This document shows, piece by piece, positions 3,516 to 16,429 of a stretch of 64,000 bases of DNA. A program made the translations under genes and the position numbers. The stretch covers positions 62,001 through 126,000 of the forward strand of contig BPGU01000005.1 of assembly GCA_026003195.1 (NCBI GenBank), in the 5' to 3' direction. The notes beneath the pieces were generated by a model. That model had not been told where the DNA came from. It did no database searches and saw only the letters and a list, made by a program, of their open reading frames with translations. Within the stretch, counting starts at the first letter, position 1. Every line of letters begins with the position of its first letter. Origin of the DNA: Armatimonadota bacterium (GTDB lineage Bacteria > Armatimonadota > HRBIN16).

Positions 3516-3565
3516 ATCGTTATCTTACCACTCTCTGCTACACTCTGTAGTATTGCCAGAAGCGG

Positions 3566-3690
3566 GGAAAGATAAGAGAGAGATAAGAGAGAGAGATAAA
3601 AGAGAGATAAAAGAGAGATAAAGGAGGGGGAGAGAGAACTACAAGAGAGTGACTGGAGAAGTGAGGAGAGGATAAAAGAGAGAGAGAAGC
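3566..3690. repeat. Purine-rich GA/GATAA tract
   Basis: About 125 bp of almost pure purine on the plus strand, made of imperfect repeats of AGATAAGAGAG and AGATAAAAGAG units. It fills most of the gene-free stretch 3516-3782 between the leader of the 2976-3473 gene and the terminator of the next transcript. No coding gene is supported in it. Such tracts can form triplex DNA, block polymerases, or act as unstructured spacers; no role is shown. Confidence 0.75.
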
Positions 3691-3782
3691 AAACAAGATG
3701 GCAATCTGTGCAGGTGAAGGAGATAAAGAGAAGGATTCAGTGGCGCCAGCCTCAAGATGCCGGAATCGAGAGGCTTGCCACC

Positions 3783-4534: not shown

Positions 4535-4570
4535 TACCTCCTTATTTGAGATTTGGAATACCTAACCTAC
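4535..4570 (-). promoter_or_regulatory. Repeated leader, copy L2
   Basis: Read leftward: GTAGGTTAGGTATTCCAAAT, then CTCAAATAAGGAGG before ATG 4530. It overlaps the stop codon of the upstream beta-like gene (4567). It gives the 185-aa and 54-aa genes their own leader inside the operon. Confidence 0.65.
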
Positions 4571-5777: not shown

Positions 5778-6827
5778 TTAGAGATCTACTCCTTCCGGCG
5801 CCCAGCGCAGGGACCAGTAATCCCTTATCAGCCGACGCCAGTTGTGATTGAAATCCACAGCCCGACTCCTTGTGGCAACCATCTGCCTCACACCTGGCAA
5901 CGCCATGTTGATGAGCGTCACCAGGTTCGGCAAATCCTTGCCGAAGCCGAACTGCGATAGCGACACCGATTCACCGGTCTTCCTGCCATCCATCATCGCC
6001 TCTATGGCGGGCGTATATCTGTCATACGCCTCAGCCCAGGCGATATCGCCATACCGGTCATAGTCGTATCGGGCATGCACCCAGGTCCACCAGGTGGCTA
6101 TGCCGACCAGCGATTTGGCGGCATGACCGTTTGCCAGACTCTGCGGGTCCACCTGCTCCACAGAGTCCGGTATCTCCACATCAGATAACTCCAGAATACG
6201 GTCAAGCGATATCTCCATGTCCACATATTCCGCCGGCTTACCACCTGTCCAGACCACGAACAGTAGATCCCCGTCGCTATCGCCCTGCCTGTCCACCACC
6301 AGGTCGTGGTCGTTGACGAATATGCCGTATCGGTCACGTACCAGCTTTATTGTGCATTTTAGGGGATTGCTGGACGCGATGGGCCACCTGATGGCGAAGC
6401 CCTCGGAAGCGGGATGCACGTTCAGACCACGCATCCCGATCCATACCTCGCCCTGAGGCACGATGGGCAGCCCGATGGCATAGCTCATGACACCGGGCAT
6501 AGCCATCGCAGACGCCTGTAACAGCTTGCGTCTTGCGGCAGCCATGAGCCATGCCTCTATCTGTTTGACCACATTCTGGCGCTCCTGCTCAGAGGCTATC
6601 AGATAATCATTGAACAGCGACCATGGCGGACCCACAAGCAGCACCTTCATGCGAACACCGTCCACCATGATCTCCTTGACAGGCAGGTCCGGCTTCGGGA
6701 TGTCCACCAGTCTGTTACCAATCATTATCTGTGCCGGCTCGCCTGTCGCAAGCTCGTGCAGCACCGTGCGGGGATACGGCACTGCATAGATACCATTGAT
6801 CAGGTTCAGAGGAACGTTCACTATCAT
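5778..6827 (-). CDS. RNA-polymerase beta'-like double-psi barrel protein (349 aa)
   Basis: The start is placed at ATG 6827 (MIVNVPLNL) behind AGGAGGCGCAGAG; a longer reading to 6938 would cross the leader. Residues 182-187 are GDSDGD followed by LLFVVW. This is the D-x-D-G-D metal-binding motif of two-barrel polymerases (NADFDGD of beta'; SDLDGDLYFV-like in QDE-1 and eukaryotic RdRPs). Upstream is an R-W-P (147-149), comparable to the NRQPT region. Downstream, LVGIATWWTWV and MMDGRKTG resemble the LGIxxNxH and VDFxKTG blocks of the RdRP/YonO class. It is followed directly by the beta-like gene. Assignment is inference from motifs but several blocks agree in order. Confidence 0.55.
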   Translation of the reverse strand: MIVNVPLNLINGIYAVPYPRTVLHELATGEPAQIMIGNRLVDIPKPDLPVKEIMVDGVRMKVLLVGPPWSLFNDYLIASEQERQNVVKQIEAWLMAAARRKLLQASAMAMPGVMSYAIGLPIVPQGEVWIGMRGLNVHPASEGFAIRWPIASSNPLKCTIKLVRDRYGIFVNDHDLVVDRQGDSDGDLLFVVWTGGKPAEYVDMEISLDRILELSDVEIPDSVEQVDPQSLANGHAAKSLVGIATWWTWVHARYDYDRYGDIAWAEAYDRYTPAIEAMMDGRKTGESVSLSQFGFGKDLPNLVTLINMALPGVRQMVATRSRAVDFNHNWRRLIRDYWSLRWAPEGVDL

Positions 6828-6833
6828 CTCTGC

Positions 6834-6864
6834 GCCTCCTGAGTTTGGGATACATAACCTATAC
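6834..6864 (-). promoter_or_regulatory. Repeated leader, copy L3
   Basis: Read leftward: TATAGGTTATGTATCCCAAA, then CTCAGGAGGCGCA before ATG 6827. It heads the two-gene polymerase-like operon and matches the consensus at nearly every position. Confidence 0.7.
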
Positions 6865-7552: not shown

Positions 7553-7583
7553 GCCTCCTTGAAGTTTGGGATACATAACCTAC
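7553..7583 (-). promoter_or_regulatory. Repeated leader, copy L4 (consensus copy)
   Basis: Read leftward: GTAGGTTATGTATCCCAAAC, then TTCAAGGAGGCGA before ATG 7545. It matches the consensus exactly over the core. Confidence 0.75.
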
Positions 7584-8459: not shown

Positions 8460-8489
8460 GCCTCCTTGAGTTTGGGATACCTAACCTAC
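8460..8489 (-). promoter_or_regulatory. Repeated leader, copy L5
   Basis: Read leftward: GTAGGTTAGGTATCCCAAAC, then TCAAGGAGG before ATG 8452. One core difference (G for T in the TTATG block), shared with L2. Confidence 0.7.
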
Positions 8490-9137: not shown

Positions 9138-9167
9138 GCCTCCTTTGAGTTTGGGATACGGAACCTA
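9138..9167 (-). promoter_or_regulatory. Repeated leader, copy L6
   Basis: Read leftward: AGTAGGTTCCGTATCCCAAA, then CTCAAAGGAGGCGA before ATG 9130. Two core differences (CC for AT); the rest is consensus. Confidence 0.65.
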
Positions 9168-9171
9168 CTGG

Positions 9172-9655: not shown

Positions 9656-9687
9656 CGCCTCCTTGAAGTTTGCAATACATAACCTAC
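9656..9687 (-). promoter_or_regulatory. Repeated leader, copy L7
   Basis: Read leftward: GTAGGTTATGTATTGCAAAC, then TTCAAGGAGGCGATAG before ATG 9649. Two core differences (TG for CC). Confidence 0.7.
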
Positions 9688-9740: not shown

Positions 9741-12700
9741 TCAACGAGACACATGCCAATACCAGCCCTCGCCGGGCTTATATACCTTGCAGGGAACCTG
9801 GAAGTGCTCACATATCCGGATGGTCATCGCAGTGCCACCAACAAACTCGTCACCACGCCAGCGAGGTATAGCAAACACAATACACGTATACACATCCTCA
9901 CCGGCGTCCAGACGAGCCTGACGAACCTGCATCAAACGCTCCACCATCCGCAGGTTCCGCACATGTAACATCAACACCCTGTCGGTCAACGCATCAGGAT
10001 TGGGATGTAACCGCTTCACTAACTCCACATCCTCTGCAGTCACATCACCCATCAACTCAACGGAACCGACAGACACATCCTGATCCACCACAATGCTCAA
10101 AGCACTGCCACCAAGACCAACAGCATGGGAGACCGCTATGCTGTCTATACCGTCGGCGCCACCGCTCAATACGGTAACGCCATGTTCCACAGCAGCCTCC
10201 ACAACGAACTTGCAGGCGTCTACCTGCTCAGCATCGGGCTCACGAGTGCCGACTACCAGACACATGGCACCGGGAACAGGAGACACCACGTACCAGGTAC
10301 CGGCAGGCAGACTCCGCTCCAGAACAGACTTCACAACAGACCAGTCCAGTCTGCCCAAACCGCAACCGACACGAGGCATCACCGCAGCGGGAACGGGCAT
10401 CGTGCGGGCAGCAGAACGAATCAACTCCAGATCCGATGCCTCACGCCAGTGACGCTTGGTCGGGAATAATACCAGATGGAACTGCTCCAGATACACGCTC
10501 ATGCCACGCTCCAGCTCGGACAGATGCGCACGATACGCATCCAGTAGACCCGGATAACGCTCCGCAGCCTGCTTCGCTACACCGGCACCCATCACACCAA
10601 CACAGTTGACAGGCACCACCGCAGGCAATCCGGTACGCTCTGCCCAATCCCAGAGATCACCATGAACCTCGGTCAATTGAACCATAGCAGACTCCTGTTG
10701 ATCTTGCTCCTGTTGATCCTGTTCCTCCTGTTGATCCTGCAACAGGTCGCCCAACTCGACGGTCTCAACAGACTCATCAGTCTCCATAGACTCATCAGTC
10801 TCCATAGACTGCTCATCGGCTAATAGACCGCCGAGTTGGGACAGATCAACCAGCTCCGTACCTTCCGGAACCTCCAGCTCGGGCACATCGATATCCCATT
10901 CCGGACCGTCAGGACCGGGCTCGGGATCATCGCCACCGAACAGAGCGTCCACATCAAAGCGCGGATACTCCTGGAAGCTGAAGCCCAGCACGAACCAGAG
11001 CGCCTGACTCAACTCCAGAGCACGCGCAATCTTGATGTGACGACGACTATACGGCACACCGAACTGCAGACCGGAATATAACACGGTGCCGTTGAATCCG
11101 GCCTCGTCCGGATCATCATCGCGCACGGTGGTATCGTCAATGAACACCATGTTCACGATACCCACAAACGCATCGCCGAGATGCACACGACGACCGTTCA
11201 CTACGCGATACAACGGAACGGACCGGATGACAACACCGAGCTCCTGAGCCTTCTGGAGCGCAGCACGCATCGCCTCGGTCTCTATCGCACCGGCTGTCAA
11301 TACCTCATAGTCGGCACGATGAGACTCTATCACGCGACGATACTCCGCCCAGATGTCGTCAATCAAGTGCGCTTTGCCCTGCATGCGTGCCGCACCGTTA
11401 ATCAGGATACCCCACGCCTGCTTCTTACGCGCGGAGATACCACTGAACACGGCATCCACACGCAACCCGTCGCCGGTCACTATCTCGTCACCAACGACGG
11501 TGGCAAATGACTTGATCATACCGTCCAGCACAACTACCTTGGCACCTACCGGACGGGAACGAGACACAGCCCAGAACTGAACGCTGGTCTCCACCGCATC
11601 GCTCGTGATGGACGCCTCATAAATCCGATACTCTACACCGAGCTCGTCAAAGTCCACCACGTCCGACGCCAGCACATCGTCTATCTTGACGAGTCCGCTC
11701 ACACCGCGCAGATACTCAAAACCATGAGCCTTGAGATCGCGCAGACGCTCGCGAATCAAATCGCCAAGATACGCACCCTCCGGTAGATGCACCAGCTGGG
11801 AACGCTCCTGCTCCACATAGTCCAGCGCACCGGCAGCAAGATAAGCGGTCTCACTGCTACCGTCGGCGGGCTGGATGAGACCAGGCGCATCCACCAGCGC
11901 AATAACCATCGGATGCACCACGCCATGCACACCGCGCACGGACGCCTCTACACTCATCAAGCCAGGAGTCTCACGCACGAAGCGATACCACTCCTGACCA
12001 CCAAACGCGAGCAGGTCGCGCCAGTGCTCGGCATTGGCGATATCCAGAGCAATCAGACGGTTCTGACCGCCCTTGCGAGGATACCAGCGCACCGTCTCAC
12101 CATACAGACGACGCACTACCTCGCTCACCAGACGGTCGAACCGATACAGAGCCACGTCCGGATCCGGTGCGATATCGGCATACACCAGACCCGCACGTAA
12201 CAGATCGCCATACACCGTGATGTGACGGGCAGTAGCCACAGATAACTCATGACGCAGACGCAACGCCTGGCTCTCGAACCGACGCACCACAGCACGCACG
12301 GCACGAACCAGACGAGACGCATCGTCCACGCCAATCGGATGGGACTTTCCACCCGCCAGCAACTGAGCCATCGCAGACGATACCTTGCAATGCACGCCCA
12401 GCAAGCCGAACAACAGACCGTTCAGCAAGCCGGACAACAACAACACCTGCGGGCTCAGATAACGAGCACCGATCTCTATACGGTCGCCAACACCCAGAAC
12501 CACAGCATCGAACCGACCGGGCAACCACTCCATGCTGCGGTCCTGAATGATGATGCAACCGCTCACAAATTCCTCCGGCTCGGCGAGGAACCATGCGGTC
12601 GCATACAGACTGACCAGACGATACTCATGAGCGACAAACGAGATACCGCTCATGGTCTCGCCAGCCTGCTTGTCGGCAACCAGCATCAGAAGGTGCCAGC

Positions 12701-14744
12701 GATACAACTTCTGACCGTCCACCTCACGGCAACCAAGACCGATGCGGAACAACTGGACGCTATCCAGAACAGCATCGGGAGCCACCTTGCGAGAGAGGTC
12801 AACGGTAACAACCTGCCCGTCGTCCTTGACAGGCACCTCGTCAAATACCATCACCTTCTCGCCAGACTCCAGCATCACAGGCTCAATCTGGTTGCCAAAC
12901 CGGTCAACCAGAACGCCCTCGGACACCACTATACCGCGATTGGACCAGGCGAACACATGCTCGCTCCAGTCCTCAGGGAACAGAACAGGCAGGAACTCGC
13001 GGTTCTCAAACGACTCGGCGTCACGCGCGTTCTTGGGAGCCTGCTGCTCCAGCCGAAGCAGAGTGAGCACGGGCAGATGCTCCGCCATACGGTGCAGAGC
13101 ACGCACCACACGACGGTGCAGACCGCCGTGCTCGTCACGCACGAGCTGTAACTGCACGCCGGTATACGCCATGCCACCAACATAATGCATCAGGTCACGG
13201 TCGTCCAGCGTGCACCACTTCGGCAAGGACAACAACTCCATCTCGGCGCCGAGACCCAATTCGCTGCGCTTGCCAACCAGCGCGGGACGCTCCACCACAC
13301 GATGGAGAGAACCGTGCATCGGAGCACGAGCACTGGTAGAAGCGGCAAGATGCAGATCGGTCACGGAAATGCTCTCGGCAGACGCGATCTCCAGATCCAG
13401 ATCCTCGCCGACACTATCCAGCACCGCAACCGCACCGGCAACAAGCTCACCGGTCTTGCGGGCATCCTCGTCGGCGTCCTGTAACAACTGCTCCGCCAAC
13501 CATCCCAGCTCGTCACGCACCTGGGACAGACGAGACATGCGGATGGCACGCAGAATGGCACGAGTATACGGCAAACTGAACGCAGGCACAGGCTCACCGG
13601 TCAACTCGTCCACCTGATTGCTGGCACCGGAGACCAGACGCTTGCGGGCGTCAAACAACGGCTCCAGCACCCGCATCAGATAGGAACTGACCAGACCGGC
13701 TTCCTTCTGGTAACCGGCACGGTCCAACGCACTGGCGATACGATACACCAGCGCGAACAGAGGACCGACACCCTGAGTGGCCAGAACACCGGCAAGCGCA
13801 GCGGCACCGTGCAGTCCGCTCATCTTGACCTGACCGGCAACGTCGCTCAACCAGGCGGGAGCCATCACGTTACCGGTCCAGAACGCCTCGAGCGGACGAG
13901 GCGCCAGCAACTGAGCCAGCTTCGGATCCAGCTCGGTCACCAGATCCCTCGCCATGGCGATATCCACATAATAACGGTCACCGTCCTCATCGCCATACAA
14001 CTGCAAGGCGATATCCGGAGGCAACCAGACCATATCGCCATGACAACCGACGGTGCTGACGTCAATCAGCACCGGCAGCGCGATGATGAAACCGGTCATG
14101 GGATCGGTCAACGGCATGCGACGCAGAATGAGCAGCAACTTACCGACACGGGCAGAAGCCGCTACCAGCATCGCAGCACGCACCGGATCGTCTACATCGA
14201 TGCCGATGTTCCCGGCGATACGAGCCGCCATGTCAACGGTGATACCCACCTCGGACACGAGCGGCTTCACACCGAACGCCGCGCTCATGGCACGGATATA
14301 ACGATGAGCAGGACCGCCCTTCACAAACTCGGGATAGTGCTCATCGTCGCCGCGCCAGAACGCCAACGGTAACGAACCACCAGGACCATACACGCCGTCT
14401 ATCTCGAACTGGCGCATGGTCTTGGCGGTCGCGGTGGATCGCAACGCCAACTCCACATCGGCGCGAGTCTTACCGGCACCGAGTTGAGCACGCCAGGCGA
14501 GCTCGAACAAGCCCTGCGGTTTCACCATGACGGTGCCGTCGGTGAGAGGATAGACGCGCACCGCACGACGGGATACCGGCAACGACACGCGCTTACCATC
14601 ATGAGTGAACTCCCACAAGGCGATGCCCACTCGTGGAAGCTCCTTGACGAGCTTGCGGGCAACAGCCTCGGGGAGAATCAGAGAGGAACCGCGCACGGTA
14701 ATCATAGCGGCACCTCCTCGCATAGAATCAAACTCGCGCATCAT
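9741..14744 (-). CDS. Giant fused two-barrel polymerase-like protein with macro and SLOG/DprA-like domains
   Basis: About 1,667 residues from ATG 14744 (after GGAGG at the upstream gene's stop); ATG 14705 also has a good GGAGG site. Numbering below counts from a GTG at 14753. Residues 254-259 are GDEDGD followed by RYYVDI, a beta'-like D-x-D-G-D motif preceded by an R-x-P. Residues 1071-1110 (GAKVVVLDGMIKSFA...GDGLRVDAVFSGIS) resemble the beta barrel with lysines K1072 and K1081. An acidic, Q/E-rich linker (about 1310-1356) follows. Next is a macro domain (1357-1495: VHGDLWDW, VNCVGVMGAGVAKQAAERYP, RVGCGLGRLDW), then a SLOG/DprA-like Rossmann domain (1496-1670: VVGTRE, SGGADGID). A paralogous fused version of the split pair at 4567-6827 is inferred. 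An internal ATG at 10685 with AGGAG six bases upstream could yield the last 314 residues alone. Confidence 0.6.
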   Translation of the reverse strand: MMREFDSMRGGAAMITVRGSSLILPEAVARKLVKELPRVGIALWEFTHDGKRVSLPVSRRAVRVYPLTDGTVMVKPQGLFELAWRAQLGAGKTRADVELALRSTATAKTMRQFEIDGVYGPGGSLPLAFWRGDDEHYPEFVKGGPAHRYIRAMSAAFGVKPLVSEVGITVDMAARIAGNIGIDVDDPVRAAMLVAASARVGKLLLILRRMPLTDPMTGFIIALPVLIDVSTVGCHGDMVWLPPDIALQLYGDEDGDRYYVDIAMARDLVTELDPKLAQLLAPRPLEAFWTGNVMAPAWLSDVAGQVKMSGLHGAAALAGVLATQGVGPLFALVYRIASALDRAGYQKEAGLVSSYLMRVLEPLFDARKRLVSGASNQVDELTGEPVPAFSLPYTRAILRAIRMSRLSQVRDELGWLAEQLLQDADEDARKTGELVAGAVAVLDSVGEDLDLEIASAESISVTDLHLAASTSARAPMHGSLHRVVERPALVGKRSELGLGAEMELLSLPKWCTLDDRDLMHYVGGMAYTGVQLQLVRDEHGGLHRRVVRALHRMAEHLPVLTLLRLEQQAPKNARDAESFENREFLPVLFPEDWSEHVFAWSNRGIVVSEGVLVDRFGNQIEPVMLESGEKVMVFDEVPVKDDGQVVTVDLSRKVAPDAVLDSVQLFRIGLGCREVDGQKLYRWHLLMLVADKQAGETMSGISFVAHEYRLVSLYATAWFLAEPEEFVSGCIIIQDRSMEWLPGRFDAVVLGVGDRIEIGARYLSPQVLLLSGLLNGLLFGLLGVHCKVSSAMAQLLAGGKSHPIGVDDASRLVRAVRAVVRRFESQALRLRHELSVATARHITVYGDLLRAGLVYADIAPDPDVALYRFDRLVSEVVRRLYGETVRWYPRKGGQNRLIALDIANAEHWRDLLAFGGQEWYRFVRETPGLMSVEASVRGVHGVVHPMVIALVDAPGLIQPADGSSETAYLAAGALDYVEQERSQLVHLPEGAYLGDLIRERLRDLKAHGFEYLRGVSGLVKIDDVLASDVVDFDELGVEYRIYEASITSDAVETSVQFWAVSRSRPVGAKVVVLDGMIKSFATVVGDEIVTGDGLRVDAVFSGISARKKQAWGILINGAARMQGKAHLIDDIWAEYRRVIESHRADYEVLTAGAIETEAMRAALQKAQELGVVIRSVPLYRVVNGRRVHLGDAFVGIVNMVFIDDTTVRDDDPDEAGFNGTVLYSGLQFGVPYSRRHIKIARALELSQALWFVLGFSFQEYPRFDVDALFGGDDPEPGPDGPEWDIDVPELEVPEGTELVDLSQLGGLLADEQSMETDESMETDESVETVELGDLLQDQQEEQDQQEQDQQESAMVQLTEVHGDLWDWAERTGLPAVVPVNCVGVMGAGVAKQAAERYPGLLDAYRAHLSELERGMSVYLEQFHLVLFPTKRHWREASDLELIRSAARTMPVPAAVMPRVGCGLGRLDWSVVKSVLERSLPAGTWYVVSPVPGAMCLVVGTREPDAEQVDACKFVVEAAVEHGVTVLSGGADGIDSIAVSHAVGLGGSALSIVVDQDVSVGSVELMGDVTAEDVELVKRLHPNPDALTDRVLMLHVRNLRMVERLMQVRQARLDAGEDVYTCIVFAIPRWRGDEFVGGTAMTIRICEHFQVPCKVYKPGEGWYWHVSR

Positions 14745-14749
14745 CTCTA

Positions 14750-15748
14750 TCACCTCCGCGGTCGGAAGCCCGCAAGACGGCGCTCAACTCCAGGATAATC
14801 CAGCCCGGAGCCCTTAGCGCCGGCAGGCTCCACAACGACAGGGGATGCAATCAAAACATCCCCGGCGGGCTGAACAACCGGCTGATGAACAGCCGGCTGA
14901 TGATCCTGAGCCTGAACAGACCGATGAGCCTGAACAGGCTCAGGAACAGGAGCAGACTCAGGCTCAGGAACAGGAGCGGGAACAGGAGCGGGAACAGGAG
15001 CGGGAACAGACTGCGGTTGCTCCTCAACCTCCTGGCGCCGTGAACGACGACGCTCTATCCTGGAGCGGCGCTTCTCCTCCCGCCGCTTCTCCGCCTCGAG
15101 CATCTCCAGTAACTTCTGCTCGAGGCGCTTCCGCCAGGCCAGACCACGCACCGGGAGCCCCTGATGGGACTCCGCAGGCTGATCGTCACAAGCCGGTCGG
15201 GAGGGAACGACCGGCTTGCCGAACACCGACACATACTCCTCGCCAGAAGCCCGTAAGGCTCTGGCGATATCAAGGGCGGTCATCTCACGCAAGACCGCCC
15301 GGGCATGACGGAGCCAGGCTGCCACGCGCCGACGGTACGATTTGACCTCGGCGCCGGCACGGTAGGCTCCGGCAGAACGGAAGGAGGACAACACAGGTTT
15401 GATGTGCGATTCATAGAACCGCACGGTGTCCTCCTTCCCAAAGACATAAACGGACGCCTGATACCAGGCGTCCAGCAATTCCTCAGCCAGCTCGAGGCTG
15501 GGCTCAGCCTCGAACTGGCGAATCGCCTCATGGAGGCGCTCCCAGCGGCGACGGAATGCGTCACCGCTGGCAATCCCATAGTGCCGGGGCAAGCGCGGGC
15601 GACGTCGCCCCGACACAGCCTCATAAACACGGAGGGCGGACTCTGCCACCTCTCCGGATACCTGAACACGAGTGCCCGGCTTGCCAGGCAAACCGGGCAC
15701 ATAAACGAACGGCTCCGCATCGCGGAGCCAAAGGGCAAATCTTAGCAT
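14750..15748 (-). CDS. Hypothetical protein with basic coiled coil and Pro-Ala-Val repeats (332 aa)
   Basis: No family recognised. ATG 15748 follows GGAGGGATCGAC. The first 170 residues are helical and basic. About residues 210-245 are a very charged helix (KRREEKRRSRIERRRSRRQ) that may bind nucleic acid. About 250-275 repeat PAPVPAPVPAPVPEPE. The tail is Q/H/P-rich and disordered. Its stop overlaps the start region of the giant polymerase-like gene, so the two are coupled and may form a complex. Base composition of the repeat is low-complexity. Confidence 0.65.
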   Translation of the reverse strand: MLRFALWLRDAEPFVYVPGLPGKPGTRVQVSGEVAESALRVYEAVSGRRRPRLPRHYGIASGDAFRRRWERLHEAIRQFEAEPSLELAEELLDAWYQASVYVFGKEDTVRFYESHIKPVLSSFRSAGAYRAGAEVKSYRRRVAAWLRHARAVLREMTALDIARALRASGEEYVSVFGKPVVPSRPACDDQPAESHQGLPVRGLAWRKRLEQKLLEMLEAEKRREEKRRSRIERRRSRRQEVEEQPQSVPAPVPAPVPAPVPEPESAPVPEPVQAHRSVQAQDHQPAVHQPVVQPAGDVLIASPVVVEPAGAKGSGLDYPGVERRLAGFRPRR

Positions 15749-15768: not shown

Positions 15769-15842
15769 GCCTGCTTCTTCAGTGCGTGGTCGGCCAGGCC
15801 ACGCAGACGGGCTGGCTAAACAGCCAGCCCGTTTCAGCTTGT
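15769..15842. repeat. Double-hairpin repeat, copy 1
   Basis: A 74-bp element repeated at 16354-16429 with only a few changes. It contains GCGTGG...CCACGC and ACGGGCTGGCT...AGCCAGCCCGT hairpins. It lies just past the stop of the 15850 gene. There is no T-run, so it is not a standard terminator. Confidence 0.8.
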
Positions 15843-16353: not shown

Positions 16354-16429
16354 GCCTGCTTCATCAGTGCGTGGTCGGCCAGGCCACGCAGACGGGCTGG
16401 CTACAAAGAGCCAGCCTGTTTCAGCTTGT
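16354..16429. repeat. Double-hairpin repeat, copy 2
   Basis: Copy of the element at 15769-15842, lying 17 bp past the stop of the 16447 gene. The second hairpin's loop is ACAAAG instead of AAAC. Same two stems. Confidence 0.8.

Follow-up and report, generated by a model that had tools for sequence, protein, structure and literature searches.

A candidate two-barrel RNA polymerase with a fused macro-SLOG module and its split paralogue in a large phage from an Armatimonadota assembly

The window, that is the whole stretch of 64,000 nucleotides analysed, spans positions 62001-126000 of the 202-kb contig C5 in a bacterial assembly of 4.58 Mb whose host organism is, at a guess, a thermophile. The contig carries a large contractile-tailed phage: the plus strand of the window encodes its terminase, portal, major head protein and tail sheath, and DNA polymerase A, a helicase and a ribonucleotide reductase are encoded elsewhere. 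A B12-dependent ribonucleotide reductase with an intein splicing domain inside is encoded on the minus strand of C5 (L009:5136-7937). The window also holds a minus-strand gene for a 542-aa Ro60/TROVE-vWA protein (520-2148; phrog_850, E 1e-56) and purine-rich GAGAGATAA repeats (3556-3698). Co-directed on the minus strand, in a leftward non-structural arm before the terminase and outside the structural module, lie the gene for a giant protein and a pair of smaller genes (Table 1).

Table 1. Positions of the giant gene, the split pair, their motifs and domains, and their orthologues in the second phage (L011, contig C7)
Feature	Position	Strand	Remarks
Giant protein (G5), 1670 aa	9741..14753	minus	intact ORF from GTG
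Gene of 332 aa, upstream neighbour	14750..15748	minus	overlaps GTG start of giant by 4 bp
R212-x-P214, strand before catalytic loop of putative beta'-like barrel (DPBB-A)	14112..14120	minus	invariant in orthologue
GDEDGD 254-259, putative DPBB-A metal-binding loop	13977..13994	minus	profile register to gp96 DFDGD and host rpoC NADFDGD
FDARK 367-371 (D-x-R-K block, 368-371), after putative bridge helix region	13641..13655	minus	
GAKVVVLDGMIKSF 1070-1083 (K1072, K1081), putative lysine loop of beta-like barrel (DPBB-B)	11505..11546	minus	
GLRVDAV 1096-1102, strand after lysine loop	11448..11468	minus	aligned to host rpoB 781-815
DarG/TARG1-type macro domain, ~1358-1490	10284..10682	minus	catalytic Lys1433 in FPTKRHW; Asn1383 in VPVNCVG
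DprA-like SLOG domain, ~1491-1657	9783..10283	minus	Pfam PF02481 E 4.8e-9; phrog_768 E 5.6e-13
21-bp motif ATAGGTTATGTATCCCAAACT before A5	6842..6862	minus	
A5, putative beta'-like half, 349 aa from second start	5778..6827	minus	RWP 147-149, GDSDGD 182-187, MDGRK 279-283
B5, putative beta-like half, 398 aa	4567..5763	minus	K275, K283, VDLLV 300-304
Giant orthologue, 2049 aa	L011:10472-16621	minus	contig C7
A7, orthologue of A5, 423-aa DxDGD protein	L011:5019-6290		E 2e-30
B7, orthologue of B5, 417 aa	L011:3902-5155		E 6e-15

Residues of the giant are counted from GTG 14753; alternative starts are ATG 14744, chosen by the first-pass annotation and preceded by a better ribosome site (GGAGGTGATAGAGATG) than the GTG, or 14705. 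That annotation had placed GDEDGD near residue 255 and a second motif near 1071, with R-x-P before and D-x-R-K after the former as in the smaller system, and all of these are found, both motifs in one intact reading frame and the flanking blocks in the giant and A5 alike. The DxDGD metal motif with its upstream R-x-P strand is present in the giant and in the split A proteins, and conserved VG...D-x-R-K blocks and predicted long helices follow the putative DPBB-A region as a candidate bridge helix/trigger loop zone. The D-x-R-K block also occurs in gp64 of phage P23-45 (IQVAVDRQK). The putative barrel region extends over at most residues ~1-1200. The 332-aa upstream neighbour has an orthologue (587 aa; BLAST E 8e-8) that likewise precedes the giant of a second phage, described below. 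A block with hairpin-like sequence (55 nt, 95%; 15769-15842 and 16354-16429) is duplicated nearly identically ahead of both the giant's operon and the gene next to it.

The two smaller genes follow one another in the order A then B, 14 bp apart. The 21-bp motif before A5 is one of six minus-strand copies of GTAGGTTATGTATCCCAAACT (4550-4570, 6842-6862, 7563-7583, 8469-8489, 9148-9168 and 9667-9687), which directly precede the ribosome sites of the 349-aa gene, first of the split pair, and of five small neighbours in the left arm. Position-weight-matrix scores of the copies are 29.6-34.6, against 14.5 for the best shuffled sequence, and nothing comparable was scored elsewhere in C5, the giant's operon included. 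The motif may serve as a phage promoter or leader element; the second phage has a different repeated leader, GATAACC..GCTCTGGAATACTATACAAGGAG.

This second phage, on contig C7 of the same assembly, was found by searching the assembly with the N-terminus of the giant, and it encodes orthologues of all three proteins, with the split genes in the same order. Identity between the two phages is 42% for the large terminase subunit (TerL), 38% for portal and ~24% for the polymerase parts of the giants (23-25%; BLAST E ~1e-8). Because orthologues of both systems occur in two phages so diverged, both systems are older than the split of these phages and have since been retained, and the giant and the split pair, kept together in both, do not stem from a recent local duplication. 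The A-like and B-like genes of the C7 phage (L011:3902-6290) share 137 nt that are read in different frames, and a frameshift fusion of their products is conceivable. C7 and the 922-kb contig C3 share an exact overlap, in reverse orientation, between the first 8290 bp of C7 and the beginning of C3, and C3 runs on into a bacterial-type gene (GH5 cellulase); on the strength of this overlap the C7 phage probably adjoins the chromosome, that is, it is a prophage.

The first-pass annotation had proposed that the two small proteins be aligned to the giant, and had named a failure of significant alignment as counting against kinship. Plain pairwise BLAST indeed gave no significant match (best E 0.18), but profile comparisons do link the systems. 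With two-sequence alignments on each side, the B half matched the giant at ~1067-1149 (E 3.5e-4), K...K and VD being in register, and the A half matched it at the D-x-R-K block (E 8.9e-4), each value being that of one single comparison. Rankings were run against 348 phage and host proteins, which leaves 347 other targets after the query itself. The profile of the giant's C-terminal part ranked B7 first of 347 (score 35.5, with 25.5 for the runner-up), and in the opposite direction the B profile ranked the giant first after B's own family. That of the N-terminal part ranked P23-45 gp96 first, A7 second and A5 fourth of 347; the link is weaker on the A side than on the B side, since the A profile puts the giant just eighth outside its family. 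All these profiles were built on two or three sequences and hhalign probabilities were low, and support is taken from rank and register. The pattern R.P-x(28,50)-D.DGD-x(80,125)-D..K matched five of 1310 ORFs from four phages and none in 30 composition-preserving shuffles, the five being both giants, A5 and A7 with their DxDGD, and P23-45 gp64, which is proven to be an RNA polymerase; because the pattern was composed after the sequences had been seen, these matches are support rather than proof. Together the comparisons support, at the level of sequence, a paralogous relationship between the giant and the split pair, both with signatures of two-barrel (double-psi beta-barrel, DPBB) RNA polymerases.

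Combined profiles of the two systems point in the same direction. The DPBB-A profile placed gp96 first and gp64 eighth of 345 proteins outside the family, with the DxDGD loops superposed, and GDxDGD fell, weakly and in the correct register, on NADFDGD of host rpoC. The DPBB-B profile placed host rpoB third outside the family, with the lysine loop and the VD strand in register with GNKG...DGTPVDI. At the level of motifs, two basic residues in the rpoB register mark the second barrel, K1072/K1081 in the giant and K275/K283 in B5, and both are kept in the giant's orthologue too; in B7 the second lysine is replaced by glutamine. Sequence and profile searches of Pfam, PHROG, NCBIfam and PDB matched neither the giant nor the split pair to any RNA polymerase, and searches of the genome with PF00562 and PF00623 found host rpoB and rpoC alone. 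AlphaFold models, made at shallow sequence depth, were too poor for barrels to be recognised (pLDDT 31.6 for residues 1-1200 of the giant, 43.0 for the A5 core), and Foldseek with the better of them, itself of low pLDDT, returned no meaningful match and none to a barrel. The separate DNA polymerase A of the same phage counts in favour of an RNA polymerase. On this motif and profile evidence, homology of the giant and the split system to polymerases is quite probable.

Given such homology, the barrels are likely to stand in reversed order. In the giant DxDGD (residue 255) precedes the lysine loop (1072), and in the split system the A gene likewise precedes the B gene, whereas the lysine barrel precedes the metal barrel in P23-45, QDE-1, phi14:2 and Thermus RNA polymerase (PMC10770324), as also described for QDE-1 (PMC1750930) and PolD (PMC4996933); the DPBB-B-before-DPBB-A arrangement of P23-45-like and QDE-1-like single-chain enzymes is not encountered here. 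The metal-barrel-first order, which the first-pass annotation did not mention, is thus opposite to that of the two-barrel polymerases compared. As the cyclic order of the parts is preserved, the arrangement could be accounted for by fusion or fission at the usual connector; a literature search on circular permutation of double-psi RNA polymerases turned up no such enzyme. The order might instead be conventional, with a lysine barrel in residues 1-160, ahead of DxDGD, and K1072/K1081 a chance match. Such a reading would agree with every published two-barrel chain compared (PMC10770324, PMC1750930, PMC4996933) and with the N-terminal ~160 residues of the giant, which are partly strand-rich by prediction and have no assigned domain, and the structural models lend no proof of a C-terminal barrel. 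It is unlikely, however, in that the lysine region gives the strongest profile match between the two systems and falls on rpoB in register, that in the split system this region has a gene of its own downstream of the DxDGD gene, and that the 349-aa protein has only ~180 residues ahead of DSDGD, little above what one barrel needs.

The title of the first-pass annotation, both polymerase barrels in one chain, holds for the motifs and is incomplete for the protein, whose last ~310 residues, left out of that account, are a macro domain and a DprA/SLOG domain (residues ~1358-1657). The macro domain matches PADLOC DarG (E 6e-20) and solved macro domains; FPTK-HW aligns to DarG structures, and the catalytic lysine and the ADP-ribose-binding asparagine are retained. 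To full-length DarG the macro part alone matches, with 66 of the 250 bits required. In the C7 orthologue macro, NADAR (E 8e-24) and SLOG domains all stand at the N-terminus, so that module order differs between the two giants. The corresponding lysine of Thermus DarG, K80, is essential (PMC5179494). DarT ADP-ribosylates phage DNA and blocks its replication and RNA synthesis, its thymine marks being reversed by macro-type DarG and its guanine marks by NADAR (PMC11543638), and SLOG-Macro-NADAR combinations are known in phages (PMC9503650). The giant thus shares with DarG/NADAR systems the macro family, the catalytic FPTK lysine and the VN asparagine (PMC5179494, PMC11543638, PMC9503650), but in known phages such domains mostly stand alone or are joined among themselves, whereas here their partner is a polymerase-like protein; no fusion of macro, NADAR or SLOG to a polymerase was found in the literature and records searched.

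The reading we favour, with moderate confidence, is that the giant is a non-virion two-barrel phage RNA polymerase with a terminal DNA de-ADP-ribosylation module and that the split pair makes up another polymerase, smaller and with its barrels in the same order. The motifs might instead be a coincidence in a structural or NAD/ADP-ribose-processing protein devoid of polymerase activity, as would suit curated models that recognise macro, NADAR and SLOG only, but several ordered motifs are conserved between orthologues of 24% identity and common to the split pair and gp64, with no match among the shuffles, which makes coincidence improbable. There is likewise a small chance that the two-barrel enzyme is something other than a promoter-driven DNA-dependent RNA polymerase, either an RNA-templated polymerase of the QDE-1 kind or a nucleotidyltransferase, for RNA repair or terminal addition, that works with the ADP-ribose domains. 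The D-x-R-K block common to the giant and gp64 recalls a motif of QDE-1-like enzymes and is counted for this alternative, as is the Ro60-like RNA-binding protein of the same phage. Phage NAD/ADP-ribose and RNA-repair modules also contain macro, NADAR and SLOG domains (PMC9503650). Against this alternative, the presence of two complete sets in each phage is more in keeping with a transcription programme, and the closest phage relatives by profile, gp96 and gp64, both transcribe DNA.

P23-45 likewise encodes two diverged two-barrel RNA polymerases, non-virion gp64 and virion gp96, the latter fused to the tape-measure protein (PMC10770324), and gp64 resembles the present proteins in its R-x-P/DxDGD/DxxK signature and its place in a leftward arm before the terminase module. 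The P23-45 enzymes are single chains of 616 and 5002 aa with barrels B then A and have no macro/NADAR/SLOG fusion, whereas the C5 phage has a 349 + 398-aa split system and a 1670-aa giant with barrels A then B and no tape-measure fusion. Jumbo phages of the phiKZ/AR9 type also carry two paralogous polymerases, virion and non-virion, with beta'- and beta-like parts on separate genes (PMC7598289, PMC7824862), but these are nearer to the cellular multisubunit type and comprise four or more polypeptides, and the C5 systems have no recognisable cellular similarity beyond motifs. QDE-1, YonO and phi14:2 gp66 are, like the giant in our reading, single chains with two barrels and a DxDxD-type metal motif (PMC1750930, PMC5467207, PMC10770324); by their published descriptions they are set apart from it by the reversed chain order. 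Of the first-pass claim of two polymerases of one new type, the paralogy of the systems stands, and possession of two per phage was already known from phiKZ and P23-45; new, as far as compared, and absent from that annotation, are the reversed order and the DarG-macro/NADAR/SLOG fusion. It also suggested that one enzyme might be packaged in the virion. A virion reading, in which the giant would be ejected with the DNA to transcribe the first genes and the split pair would act later, as with gp96 and gp64, draws on the usual pairing of one virion and one non-virion enzyme per phage (PMC7598289, PMC10770324) and on gp96 as best profile match outside the family, but it finds no support in a gene that lies with the split pair in the non-structural arm, like gp64, and lacks a tape-measure fusion, and has little probability. 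Virion packaging was rejected as the main reading on genome position; DxDGD and DxDID motifs are absent from the eight large proteins of the right arm, which gives no pointer to a virion enzyme there, either way.

Relatives are few. None turned up in viral contigs, for which the giant, its alignment and its core as well as the A half served as queries, nor in GTDB contigs searched with the giant and TerL or in phage records searched with the A half; phage records searched with the giant gave, among the matches listed, macro and DprA only. Among species of the same phylum the split pair was found in only one further genome, of the same genus. Relatives of TerL were short viral contigs without the polymerase genes. 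By terminase the annotated phage closest to this one is Moorella phage MTATph1, in which macro and DprA are standalone genes and a polymerase of this type is absent.

In the enzyme as we picture it, a beta'-like barrel with DxDGD and its metals would be followed along the giant chain by intervening domains and a beta-like barrel with two lysines, and the 349-aa and 398-aa genes would form an operon encoding the halves of the smaller polymerase. The barrels would pack face to face, three aspartates binding two metal ions and the lysines holding the RNA end, and the enzyme would transcribe phage DNA. Tethered macro and NADAR domains could then strip the ADP-ribose set by host DarT-type toxins on thymine or guanine of the template, after which transcription of marked phage DNA could go on. 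A polymerase with attached template-cleaning enzymes is the simplest functional reading, the one basis for the link being the fusion; as an alternative, the domains may act on small ADP-ribose signals and be merely attached. More tentatively, and as a possibility only, the two phages may represent a circularly permuted lineage of two-barrel RNA polymerases, each phage having a split enzyme of minimal size (~750 aa over both halves) and a giant whose own DNA de-ADP-ribosylation enzymes erase DarT marks from the template being transcribed. If true, the split enzyme of 349 + 398 aa would be very small for a two-barrel polymerase (gp64 of P23-45 has 616 aa), and a lineage with the barrels the other way round would be relevant to the way in which they were first joined or split. 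The fusion of a polymerase to a DNA ADP-ribosyl hydrolase, if real, would be a direct counter to DarT-type defence, which marks the template and stops phage transcription.
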